Positions 3,460 to 35,364 of a stretch of DNA of 35,364 bases are shown here, piece by piece (position 1 is the first letter of the stretch; each line of letters begins with the position of its first letter). Origin of the DNA: Nitrospira sp. CG24E (lineage in GTDB: Bacteria; Nitrospirota; Nitrospiria; Nitrospirales; Nitrospiraceae); contig NEWP02000018.1 of the NCBI GenBank assembly GCA_002869895.2, positions 31,241 through 66,604 on the forward strand. Reading direction: 5' to 3'. A program made the position numbers and the translations under genes. The notes beneath the pieces are model-generated. The model saw nothing but the letters and a program-made list of their open reading frames with translations, made no database searches and had not been told where the DNA came from.

Positions 3460-3894
3460 TTGCCGAAGATCGAACGCTTCGAGGACATCAAAGTCTGGGG
3501 GATGGCTAAGGAGTTGGTTGCTGCCGTGTATCGGCTCAGTGGGGAAGGAAAGTTTTCACAGGACTTTGGGCTGCGGGATCAGATTCGAAGAGCATCAGTC
3601 TCGGTCATGTCGAATATTGCGGAAGGGTTTGAGCGAGGCTCAAAGAATGAATTTGCGAGGTTTCTGAGGATTGCCAAGGGTTCTTCCGGTGAAGTTCGAA
3701 GCCAATTGTATGTTGCGCTAGAGTTGGGATATGTTGATTCTCATGAGTTTTCAACAATGAGGGTTCGGGCGGAGGATGTGTCAAAAGCGTTGTCGGGATT
3801 CATCAGTTACTTGGCCCGAGGAATCGGAAGGCAGAAAAGTGTCAAGGCTGATAAGCTTTCTGGCGATGATCCCTTGCACATTCCAACTTTCTAA
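3460..3894 (+). CDS. four-helix-bundle protein (23S rRNA intervening-sequence type)
   Basis: A 144-residue protein of the family first found encoded in intervening sequences of 23S rRNA genes and also as free genes (related folds include Avd, the accessory protein of diversity-generating retroelements). Family marks are [16 protein letters not shown] at the start, [23 protein letters not shown] in helix 2 and the [19 protein letters not shown] segment of helix 3. The molecular role of the free-standing forms is not established. The start is TTG 3460 with GGGGAG upstream; no ATG lies near the family N-terminus. The gene is bracketed by imperfect inverted repeats and separates ispF from cysE, which suggests a cassette inserted there. 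No reverse transcriptase or variable repeat is nearby. Confidence 0.85.
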
Positions 3895-4697: not shown

Positions 4698-4736
4698 GAT
4701 GAACTTGTTGCGCACGTCTAGCTTGTCTCGCTCGTA

Positions 4737-6061: not shown

Positions 6062-7351
6062 TCATCGCGTGGCGAGTTTTGAAGAGGTGAGGAATGTGTT
6101 GATGCCTTCCATGAGCGCTTCTGCTACGCGGGTGGTAAAGAGGCCGGTTCGGAGGAGATCCTCTTCGCCGGAGTTCGAAATATAGGCGATTTCAGCCAGG
6201 ATGCTGGGCATGCTGGTGAAGCGCAGCACATAAAAGGGAGCGGTCTTTACCCCGTGATCCACCAGGGGGTAGTGGTTGTTGAGATTGCTCACCATGGCCT
6301 CTTTGGCGCTCCAGGCGAGTTCCAGAGATTCTTCGATTTTCTTTGCCGTCAGGAGATCGGCGACAAGATATTCCCATCCCACACCGGTACTACTGAGCGG
6401 GGTTCCATTTTCACGGGCTGCCACTTCCAGCGCCCGTTGATCCTTGGCCTCTCCGAAGTGATAGATTTCGAGTCCTTTTACGGAGCGTTGCGGATGCGAA
6501 TTCACATGGATCGATACGAAGAGGTCAGCCGACTGTTCATTGGCGAACTTCGCCCGGTCTTCCAACTCGACGAACTGGTCCCGTTCGCGTGTCATCAGGA
6601 CGTGAATTCCCGGTTGCCTGATCAAGAGATCGCGAAGCTTTAGCGCAACTTTCAATGTAATATCTTTTTCTTCCGTCCCTCGCTGCCCCCGTGCCCCAGG
6701 ATCTCGTCCGCCATGGCCAGGATCGATCACGATGGTCTTCAGCGGCTTGGCTCTCGGCTGAGCAGGCTGAGGAGGCGTGGTGAGTGGAAGTCCCCGATCT
6801 GGTATCGACTCAGTACTTGCAGAGACTAGGGGCTCACGGGCAGGCACCACGTCGATGACAAGCCGATGAGGGTTTGACAGTGTCAGTAATTTATAGCTTT
6901 GAAATGAGCCAGTTGGGAGAGAGACCTCGAGTGATCGTTCCGAGCTCTGGCTGATGATAAAGTATTTTGGAATCTTGCCGGCTGTCAGTTTTGCCTTGGC
7001 AGATTGGCTTAAGGTGGCATTGGGAATTTCGATCGTCAGACCCTCGGACTGGAGTTGAGGATTTTTATTGGGGCGGGCCTTGGCATCGAGATCGAGCACG
7101 AGTCTCATCCACCCTGGCGCGCTGGCCGTCCGGAGGTTCTGTACCGTGGCCAGGCCGAGTCCATTGGGAGACAGGTGGACCGGAGTGGTCCGTGACTTTG
7201 TGGGCTTAGCAGCGGGCTCCTGTTGGGCAGAGCTGGTTGCCGCATAGGCATGGCCTGCATGAAACTGGTCGAGGGCAGGCCAAGGGCTGTCGAAGAGTCC
7301 GACCAAGAAGGCGAGGATAAGGATGTGCCATCGAGCTGATCGCATGGGCAT
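6062..7351 (-). CDS. amiC: N-acetylmuramoyl-L-alanine amidase (AMIN + Amidase_3)
   Basis: Cleaves the amide bond between MurNAc and the stem peptide of peptidoglycan during cell separation. It has a signal peptide (hydrophobic about residues 9-27, Ala-rich cleavage region near 37), an AMIN-type localisation domain (about 65-170) and a zinc amidase domain (about 205-425). Zinc ligands are His213 (DPGHGGRDPG), Glu228 and His282 (FVSIHVNSH). Their spacing of 15 and 69 residues equals that of E. coli AmiC, and Glu387 (LAEIAYISN) is the likely catalytic acid. The domain order matches AmiB/AmiC; the exact paralogue name is uncertain. It is divergent from the NYN gene across a repeat-rich 282-bp region. 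Confidence 0.92.
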   Translation of the reverse strand: MPMRSARWHILILAFLVGLFDSPWPALDQFHAGHAYAATSSAQQEPAAKPTKSRTTPVHLSPNGLGLATVQNLRTASAPGWMRLVLDLDAKARPNKNPQLQSEGLTIEIPNATLSQSAKAKLTAGKIPKYFIISQSSERSLEVSLPTGSFQSYKLLTLSNPHRLVIDVVPAREPLVSASTESIPDRGLPLTTPPQPAQPRAKPLKTIVIDPGHGGRDPGARGQRGTEEKDITLKVALKLRDLLIRQPGIHVLMTRERDQFVELEDRAKFANEQSADLFVSIHVNSHPQRSVKGLEIYHFGEAKDQRALEVAARENGTPLSSTGVGWEYLVADLLTAKKIEESLELAWSAKEAMVSNLNNHYPLVDHGVKTAPFYVLRFTSMPSILAEIAYISNSGEEDLLRTGLFTTRVAEALMEGINTFLTSSKLATR

Positions 7352-7422
7352 TCACTATATGTGATGGGAGATAGAGTTTCTCTCAAATGCCGGTGCGGTT
7401 GTCAAGGGGATTGGCCATTCAC

Positions 7423-7598
7423 GAGCGAGACGTGCGAGACTGGCGGGAAAAGCGCGACTGGTTGACATGAAGTGCGAAGTTCTGAGTTAGAAGTTCCGGA
7501 AACCTCGAACTTCTGACATCTAACTCTTCCTCGTTGCGCAAGCCTCGCATTGCTCACGTCTCGCGAGTCTCGCTCCTCGCGCTTGTCGCGCGCCAATT
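7423..7598. repeat. Nested inverted repeats, GCGAGAC-type 9-mer array with inner hairpin
   Basis: The left arm 7423-7458 consists of four 9-nt units close to GTGCGAGAC. The right arm, about 7530-7598, carries inverted relatives of them. Inside lies a second hairpin of different sequence (about 7487-7515; TAGAAGTT paired with AACTTCTGA, loop about 5 bases). The structure occupies the divergent region between the amidase and NYN genes, where both promoters must lie. Confidence 0.65.
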
Positions 7599-7633
7599 GA
7601 CACGGCGCGGTGTGAGCGGTAGTTTCTCGAACT

Positions 7634-8167
7634 ATGGCACTCCATCTGATCGTTGATGGCTACAATCTCCTGGTTCAGGCGAGTCGGCTTGCTGGAAGAG
7701 AGAGTCTGCAGTCCGAGATGGCGCGCGAATCGTTGTTGCGGGATTTGGCTCTCTATCGTCAACGAAAGTCCCATGCGATCACGGTGGTTTTTGACGGGTG
7801 GCAACAGGGGTGGGGCACGGAACAGCGGGAGCATCGGCTCGGTCTCGAAATCATTTTTTCTCGGCGGGGAGAAAAGGCGGATCAGGTAATTCAACGATTG
7901 GCTGCCGAATTCGGATCCGCTTGCGCAGTGGTGAGTTCCGACCGTGAGATTATCGACTCTGCAAAAGCGCAGGGGGCCTTCGTGATGAAGGCCCAGGAGT
8001 TTGCCGGGAAACTGCATGAGAGACCGAACGCCATCAGGGTTGCGGCGCACAAAGAACTGGATACGGGGGAAGATCTTCGTCCGAAGCGAGGGCCTGACAA
8101 GCGCGGGAACCCTCGTAAGTTACCCAAGGCGCTGCGGCAGCGCAGCAGCCAGCTCAAGCGATTTTAG
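7634..8167 (+). CDS. NYN-domain protein (YacP/Rae1-like nuclease)
   Basis: A 177-residue protein of the YacP-type NYN (PIN-like) family, predicted metal-dependent ribonucleases. The Bacillus member Rae1 cuts mRNA on the ribosome. Visible acidic positions are Asp8 in LIVDGYNLL, the VVFDGW strand, the GEKADQVIQ segment and the VVSSDREI strand, which together supply the PIN acidic cluster. The C-terminal tail (about 145-177) is very basic (RPKRGPDKRGNPRKLPK), suiting RNA contact. The start is ATG. The stop TAG shares its last base with the end of a MITE-like element. Confidence 0.85.
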   Translation: MALHLIVDGYNLLVQASRLAGRESLQSEMARESLLRDLALYRQRKSHAITVVFDGWQQGWGTEQREHRLGLEIIFSRRGEKADQVIQRLAAEFGSACAVVSSDREIIDSAKAQGAFVMKAQEFAGKLHERPNAIRVAAHKELDTGEDLRPKRGPDKRGNPRKLPKALRQRSSQLKRF

Positions 8168-8360
8168 GAGGATGCTGAAAAAGTCGCTCTTCTCACCCGC
8201 CCAACCCCGGCGCGCCGAGACGCGCCTTTTCCCGTGCATCGTTCTCGCATCGCTCAGAGGCTCAACGTACCGAAGCGTACGCCTCGCCTCTTCGCTCGCT
8301 GCGGCGCCTCGCCTCTTCGCTCGCTGCGGCCTTGCTGAACGGCCTTTTTGAGCATCCTCC
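8167..8360. repeat. MITE-like element M1
   Basis: Terminal inverted repeats of about 20 nt at 8167-8186 and 8340-8360 (GGAGGATGCTGAAAAAGTCG, with its near inverse at the right end). Inside are a hairpin core related to AACGTACCGAAGCGTACG and an exact 24-nt direct duplication at 8281-8304 and 8306-8329. There is no coding capacity. It starts on the last base of the NYN stop codon and lies between convergent genes. Confidence 0.8.
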
Positions 8361-21505: not shown

Positions 21506-21541
21506 GTGCGAGACACGCGGGACGAGCGGGACAGGCGAGAC
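21506..21541. repeat. GCGAGAC-type 9-mer array beside array H
   Basis: Four 9-nt units: GTGCGAGAC, ACGCGGGAC, GAGCGGGAC, AGGCGAGAC. They are the same unit family as 7423-7458 and are directly followed by TGGTTTGTY-type units, so two 9-mer families meet here. Confidence 0.65.
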
Positions 21542-34151: not shown

Positions 34152-35059
34152 CAGAAACGGAACAGCATAGCATTATGAAATTTGGAACAATTGCGATAAT
34201 CGGCCGGCCGAACGTCGGCAAGTCGACATTGCTCAATCGGCTGCTCGAGCAGAAGATTGCGATCGTGTCGGACAAGCCGCAAACCACGAGGACGAGAATT
34301 TTAGGGATCGTGCATGTACCGGGGGCGCAGATCGCATTGCTCGATACCCCGGGGTTGCACAAGCCGCAACATCTGCTTAATCGTCGGATGGTCCGCACCA
34401 CCGTCGAGGTGTTGGAGGAGGCGGATATCTTGTACGTGTTGATGGACACGACGAGTTCGCCTGGTCCCGGCGATCTATTGGTCATCGACCATGTGAAGGG
34501 GGCGGTTAGGAAACGTCCGCGTCCGGTGATTCTGGTGCTGAATAAGGTGGATTTGGTGAATAAGCTCAAATTGCTTCCGGTGATGGAAATCTACGCCAGA
34601 TTATTCGCCTGGACAGACGTGGTGCCTGTATCGGCCGAGACCGGCGACAACGTCGATCGATTGTTGTCCGTAACCGTGGCGCATCTTTCGGAAGGGGATG
34701 CGGCTTATGATGCAGACACGGTTACAGATCAGTCTATGAGGACCTTGGCGTCTGAGATGATTCGAGAGAAGATTCTGCATCAGACCTATGAGGAAGTGCC
34801 TTACTCGGTTGCCGTGGAGATCGATGAGTTTGTCGAGGAGGGGAAGCTCGCGCGCATCAGCGCGACGGTCTTGGTCGAGCGGGAGTCTCATAAGGCGATC
34901 CTGATCGGGAAGCACGGAGAGAGACTCAAGGCAGTCGGGACCGATGCACGACGCGAGATGGAGCAGATTTTTGGGATGAAAGTGTATCTGCAGCTGTGGG
35001 TGAAAGTGCGGGAGGCGTGGCGAGAGGATGAGCATGCCCTCACGGAATTAGGTTACTAG
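34148..35059 (+). CDS. era: GTPase Era
   Basis: A GTPase that binds the 3' end of 16S rRNA during small-subunit assembly. Of 303 residues, the G domain carries GRPNVGKST, the switch region KPQTTRTRI, DTPGLHKP and NKVD, and the KH domain has ILIGKHGERLKAVG. GTG 34148 overlaps the ftsB-like stop by 4 bases; ATG 34175 is an alternative start. The stop TAG (35057-35059) lies in CTAG, shared with the end of the adjacent transposase. Confidence 0.96.
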   Translation: MTETEQHSIMKFGTIAIIGRPNVGKSTLLNRLLEQKIAIVSDKPQTTRTRILGIVHVPGAQIALLDTPGLHKPQHLLNRRMVRTTVEVLEEADILYVLMDTTSSPGPGDLLVIDHVKGAVRKRPRPVILVLNKVDLVNKLKLLPVMEIYARLFAWTDVVPVSAETGDNVDRLLSVTVAHLSEGDAAYDADTVTDQSMRTLASEMIREKILHQTYEEVPYSVAVEIDEFVEEGKLARISATVLVERESHKAILIGKHGERLKAVGTDARREMEQIFGMKVYLQLWVKVREAWREDEHALTELGY

Positions 35060-35364
35060 TGGCCTGTACCAACTGATTGTGTACTGAGATGTCGCGACGG
35101 ATCAGCGTATTTCCATTTCACGGTTCGAGGCGACTTATTGTAATGGCGGATGTAGCGCATGAGCTTTCTCTTCAGGTCCGAAACGGACGTGAACACACCG
35201 CGGGCGATCACGTCGCGCTCGATCTTGCCGAACCACAGCTCGACCTGGTTGAGCCACGAGGAGTACGTCGGGGTGAAGTGCAGATGAACCTTCGGATGCG
35301 CACCGAGGAAGTCCTGAACGGGCTTGCTCTTGTGGGCCGAGAGGTTGTCGGCGATGACATGGAT
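35056..35364 (-). CDS. IS630-family transposase, C-terminal part
   Basis: On the minus strand a frame enters from the right edge and runs 102 codons to TAG at 35056-35058. It has IHVIADNLSAHKS with the second catalytic Asp, then TPTYSSWLNQVELWFG with the catalytic Glu, 35 residues apart, which is the DDE pattern and wording of IS630-type transposases. The N-terminal half lies outside the window. The element ends within the CTAG of the era stop, and IS630 elements target TA, so this appears to be an insertion exactly at the stop. Confidence 0.85.
   Translation of the reverse strand: MHVIADNLSAHKSKPVQDFLGAHPKVHLHFTPTYSSWLNQVELWFGKIERDVIARGVFTSVSDLKRKLMRYIRHYNKSPRTVKWKYADPSRHLSTQSVGTGH
35059..35364. 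mobile_element. IS630-family insertion sequence, one end
   Basis: The 3' end of the transposase runs to the very edge of the element, with the CTAG of era at the junction. The other end and its terminal inverted repeat lie beyond the window, so the boundary is inferred from the TA target rule and the coding end. Confidence 0.6.

Follow-up and report, generated by a model that had tools for sequence, protein, structure and literature searches.

Between the divergently transcribed amidase gene (6062–7351, minus strand) and NYN gene (7634–8167, plus strand) of this Nitrospira genome, the spacer holds a nested inverted array of 9-nt units, which raises the question of whether the array is a switch for its two neighbours or a repeat that happens to lie there. 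Positions refer to the window, the whole stretch of 35,364 nucleotides analysed, from contig C10 of the source genome (G000; 3.45 Mb in 99 contigs; the genomes are drafts throughout). Rather than a gene switch, the element is most likely a selfish-type repeat that is mobile. Its relatives are present in many copies, are inverted, are restricted to one bacterial family, lie between genes, are empty or replaced at orthologous sites and are nested with other palindromes, and the window feature is probably one of some fifty dispersed copies belonging to a Nitrospiraceae family of imperfect extragenic palindromes, which behaves as a non-autonomous element that spreads and disappears. Nitrospira is a key nitrifier genus, and no description of such a family in it was found in the open-access literature, where an account in a subscription journal could be missed.

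The feature itself (7423–7598) consists of two inverted arms of four 9-nt units each (core GCGNGAC), which flank an inner hairpin. The parts of the locus, and two further family members in the window, are listed below; GC denotes the GCGAGAC units, and TT a second word family, GGTTYRTYT.

4707–4731, minus strand: further family member, in which GC units pass in register into TT units.
7400–7405, minus strand: putative −35-like TTGACA box of the amidase gene; every aligned species, whether or not it carries the element, retains TTGTCAA on the plus strand.
7406–7596, no strand: stretch flanked by the two −35-like boxes; relatives without the element lack it or have other sequence in its place (orthologous intergenic alignment).
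7425–7460, plus strand: left arm of four 9-nt units, GCGAGACGT GCGAGACTG GCGGGAAAA GCGCGACTG; the arm consensus is the same in many genomic copies.
7484–7526, no strand: inner nested hairpin(s), GTTAGAAGTTC/GAACTTCTGAC and GAGTTAGAAGT/ACATCTAACTC; the module recurs in L145, L125, L044 and L046.
7537–7549, minus strand: extra GC-type unit located after the core and ahead of the right arm; its minus-strand sequence is TGCGAGGCTTGCG.
7556–7591, minus strand: right arm, inverted, GCGCGACAA GCGCGAGGA GCGAGACTC GCGAGACGT on the minus strand; L139 and L052 have near-identical arms.
7597–7625, plus strand: putative promoter-like site of the NYN gene, TTGACA-N17-TAGTTT, abutting the element; TTGACA is kept across aligned species.
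21508–21541, plus strand: further family member, kept in the close relative, with an inverted TT-type core preceded by four GC units.

Seven adjacent unit pairs stand at 9-nt spacing, a number reached by none of 2,000 dinucleotide shuffles of either the 176-bp feature or the whole intergenic region (shuffle average at most 0.05), and the autocorrelation has its maximum at lag 9 in both arms (0.62 and 0.70), which bears out the 9-nt units in two inverted arms reported by the initial annotation. The word named there, GTGCGAGAC, does occur as a unit, but as only one of four, the common core being GCGNGAC. The arm inversion covers 18 nt at 89% (7423–7440 / 7558–7575) within a 39-nt arm pair at 72%, and the inner hairpin (7486–7496 / 7507–7517) matches at 91%. 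This hairpin, described at first as unrelated to the arms, is real but not unrelated, as cores of the GAAGTTC / GAGGTTTCCGGA type also lie between the GCGAGAC arms of the same four loci that share the module.

A genome search for GCGAGAC-type units at 9-nt spacing found dozens of loci outside the feature with like spacing and inversion, which defeats the refuting condition set by the initial annotation. The three-unit pattern matched 105 times in the 3.45-Mb genome and not once in the reversed control, and GCGAGACNNGCGAGAC, with at most two mismatches, matched 243 times versus 49 in that control. With a covariance model, about 40 loci of the same genome were recovered at E<1e-5, including the window copy (7402–7600, 1.7e-8), and three loci of other genomes outside the training set (L173, L174, and L176) were matched at 82–105 bits. 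Among neighbouring arms at most 150 nt apart in the source genome, 23 pairs are head-on ('+-'), two are in tandem ('++'), and none is tail-to-tail ('-+').

Thirteen dispersed copies, 11 of them from the source genome or its close relative and the remaining two from further species, were aligned to give a canonical consensus, the A-type. It is about 150 nt long and comprises CGTTCGTGAA-type ends, four 9-nt GCGNGACNN units, a loop of about 20 nt, four inverted units and an inverted end. The left units GCGAGACAA, GCKAGACGT, GCGCGACAG, and GCGCGACTC stand opposite the right units GCGGGACTC, GCGAGACTT, GCGAGAAAA, and GCGGGACTG, and because the two sets of words face each other in this way, stem mismatches recur at unit positions 4, 8, and 9. 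The window copy is of a type related to the A-type, with a larger nested core.

Like the REP/BIME/REPIN sequences of the RAYT-associated GTAG superfamily, these repeats are high-copy, extragenic, imperfect palindromes with head-on pairs, lie mainly between convergent and tandem genes, and are missing from many relatives. Published REP units measure 20–40 bp, with stems of 5–13 bp and a terminal GTAG (PMC3116915, PMC2817692, PMC3733652), whereas the Nitrospira arms consist of 9-nt units, span 36 nt and show recurring mismatches; a terminal unpaired GTAG is found neither at the two ends of the window copy nor in the A-type consensus. The CGTC REPs have stems of 8–9 bp, loops of 4–5 nt and a CCA-like tail (PMC3733652). 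With these, the family shares an extragenic palindrome that has no dedicated transposase, and the A-type happens to carry CGTC near its end; however, its stem is about 36 nt and interrupted, and its loop is about 20 nt. The element resembles a REP/MITE-type extragenic palindrome, but fails both the GTAG and the CGTC REP definitions.

Orthologous places in relatives document the turnover. Thirteen loci were searched for empty sites by joining their flanks. The L126 locus has a clean empty site in G257 and five other aligned genomes, and the L124 and L139 loci have empty regions in relatives. At L145, L162, and L153 (compared with G257) and at L140 and L142 (compared with G214), the orthologous intergenic space has different content, in part another palindrome; at L134/L183, L158/L184, and L133/L275, the outer parts are kept and the interior or the right arm is replaced. 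The L142/L272 copy is kept in both species. At L278, L282, and L283, an inverted word family, AGGTTGAGG / CCTCAACCT, occupies the intergenic space that in the source genome is taken up by a GCGAGAC element. Old copies exist as well: well-separated species share the amidase/NYN locus's right boundary and an A-type arm after a PsiF-like gene, a pattern that would be expected of retained functional sequence too and counts against the mobile reading.

We propose that the non-autonomous element spreads and is lost by being moved in trans, that a folded single-stranded hairpin or a cruciform would probably be what a trans-acting enzyme recognises, and that recombination between copies may swap interiors and arms. 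As for the mobiliser, the Y1 transposases (PF01797) were searched for in the source genome and 60 genomes of the family: none of the three in the source genome is flanked by copies, and G236, with 113 pattern matches, has no PF01797 match at all, unlike what is seen with RAYT-associated REPs. A REPtron, i.e., mobilisation by RAYT/Y1 transposases, was rejected on these grounds as unlikely, and the lack of a flanked transposase also counts against the mobile reading as such. A strict 9-nt module, recurring mismatches, no requirement for RAYT, and fast turnover of presence and absence among related species would widen the REP/MITE class, and the family offers a tractable case for the spread of extragenic palindromes without a known transposase.

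Under a more conventional version of mobility, the element would be a classical MITE, a deletion derivative of an insertion sequence that keeps the terminal repeats and is moved by that sequence's transposase. The non-coding nature, the length of 100–200 bp, the shared ends of the fixed-length A-type, and the polymorphic presence with empty sites all agree with this. Unlike in a MITE, however, the interior is replaced while the ends stay: the end word CGTCGTTCGTGAA, which occurs 71 times in the source genome (5 in the control; e.g., L284–L311), bounds palindromes with many unrelated interiors, the GCGAGAC type included. A parent insertion sequence was sought through this word, and the loci read had only other palindromes, and no transposase gene, between such ends. 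No target-site duplication is readable at L126, the best empty site, whose flanks have partly diverged. A MITE origin is unlikely.

The repeat shares its genomes with a second 9-nt family. Across 245 genomes of the phylum, the three-unit GC pattern is frequent only in Nitrospiraceae (g1, the genus of the source genome, g5 and g10, with g2 and g9 in part) and stays at control level outside those groups. The genome set of the TT family, GGTTYRTYT, overlaps with this one: among genomes common to both samples, those with at least five exact TT matches (G000, G133, G193, G195, G214, and G236) all have at least 12 GC matches, while G125 has 97 GC matches and only three TT. The TT pattern is of low complexity and its control count is sizeable in some genomes (23 versus 62 in G000). 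TT words nest inside GC arms, and several arms pass from GCGAGAC units directly into GTTTGTCTG-type units with the 9-nt register kept, clearly so at window position 4707 (minus strand), L127, L146, L161, and L165. TT arrays located behind a GC arm are in phase zero more often than in any other phase (12 of 29 raw cases, some of them false or duplicate). Several in-register arms have the junction GACGGGTTGATCTGG in common and are probably descendants of one hybrid copy, so that the phase-zero excess, which is not a count of independent events, is suggestive. The initial annotation had taken the 9-nt period together with the inversion as the conserved property. This gains from a second 9-nt family that nests inside the first and often continues in register, but it is weakened by the copied hybrid subfamily and by other words of other periods in these regions.

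Two further readings start from these arrays. The 9-nt register may be a physical unit, by which some protein or enzyme assembles, binds or copies the arms one unit at a time, and the nested palindromes would then belong to one hairpin-based mobility system of Nitrospiraceae; we regard this as doubtful. If it were true, unrelated words (GCGNGACNN and GGTTYRTYT) could be joined in one arm without loss of phase. Alternatively, hairpin template-switching and slippage could make and remodel inverted tandem arrays as a mutational by-product, with no dedicated enzyme. Nested inverted arrays of several word families, differing in period, do lie together in the same intergenic regions, and whole 9-nt units are missing from one or both arms at L129, L163, L124, and L133, as such a process would leave them. 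A consensus of about 150 nt at many loci and in several genomes, however, needs copying between loci, for which slippage alone is insufficient, and we consider the by-product reading improbable.

The placement of copies relative to genes bears on the functional readings. Of 55 clusters, assigned with a home-made gene caller, 25 have tandem, 20 convergent and seven divergent neighbours, and the other three lie inside a called open reading frame. A genome must have about as many convergent as divergent gaps, and 20 convergent versus seven divergent clusters therefore amount to a bias toward gene ends. The same preference for convergent and tandem gaps has been described for REPs (PMC3733652).

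This bias, and the many copies that lie within 0–15 nt of a stop codon, would suit an RNA element, i.e., a transcribed 3′-end hairpin that acts as a terminator, mRNA stabiliser or processing site, as has been proposed for some REP sequences. The stem is also maintained among dispersed copies: across the 13 aligned copies, pairing in the main helix amounts to 90%, with 14 double changes versus 7.3 in shuffles (0/500), figures flattered by a structure taken from one row. Against this, the variable unit positions 4, 8, and 9 pair no more commonly than with random partners, if anything more rarely (32 elements), and no terminator-like site is present at the window copy, which lies upstream of both genes. 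A structured RNA was rejected as a candidate: Rfam 15 gives no gathering-score match in the window (best sub-threshold E=0.84), and the canonical copy folds as RNA with a z-score of only −0.8, the window feature as DNA with one of −2.3. An RNA function appears quite unlikely.

The amidase/NYN spacer measures 282 bp in the source genome, as compared with 113 bp in L043, the closest relative fetched (94% amidase identity), which is without the element, and about 127–131 bp in several element-free species; L040, L044, L045, L046, L047, and L052 carry differing insertions in it. The right boundary TTGTCGCGCGCCAATTGACA is common to the window copy and L044, and the left boundary to the window copy and L046. 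On the tree, filled species are mixed with empty ones, a pattern that does not fit one simple gain, so that the history is either a single old gain followed by several losses or the repeated occupation of one spot; the short odd remnant in L043 would reflect imprecise loss. In other species, the two promoter-like sites stand back-to-back, and the element here separates them and replaces neither. A consensus scan for promoters and terminators at the locus returned nothing above threshold, the NYN promoter-like site included. On the mobile reading, the element would have landed between the two sites, most likely only spacing them apart with no regulatory role needed, although it may have a local effect on the amidase and NYN genes.

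An operator, at which a repressor or activator binds the tandem 9-bp sites and controls the two divergent genes, would account for a position exactly between two conserved TTGACA boxes, for constant-spacing tandem sites in inverted arms, and for unit cores far better conserved than positions 4, 8, and 9 (detection favours the six core positions, so that core conservation is partly built in, while positions 4, 8, and 9 are unselected), but it is very unlikely, as 52 of the 55 clusters are intergenic with only seven divergent, L043 and several other species without the element have both boxes intact, the spacing is 9 rather than the 10–11 bp of a helical turn, and copies at orthologous places come and go. 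The regulatory effect that the initial annotation considered possible does not hold as a general rule; a general promoter-regulating role is not supported, and such arrays at promoters should not be taken for operators.

The surroundings offer a few further observations. The TAGTTT box and the NYN ATG are 8 nt apart (7620–7634), with similar spacing in relatives, and the NYN transcript could, therefore, be leaderless. Among the window's other genes, an open reading frame at 3460–3894, amid housekeeping genes, presumably encodes a protein similar to the four-helix-bundle type known from 23S rRNA intervening sequences, and a protein fragment at the window end (35056–35364) appears from its translation to resemble an IS630-type transposase. 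The word AGGATGCTGAAAAAGTC, which begins directly after the NYN stop codon (8168–8200), turns up again in many intergenic places in these genomes.
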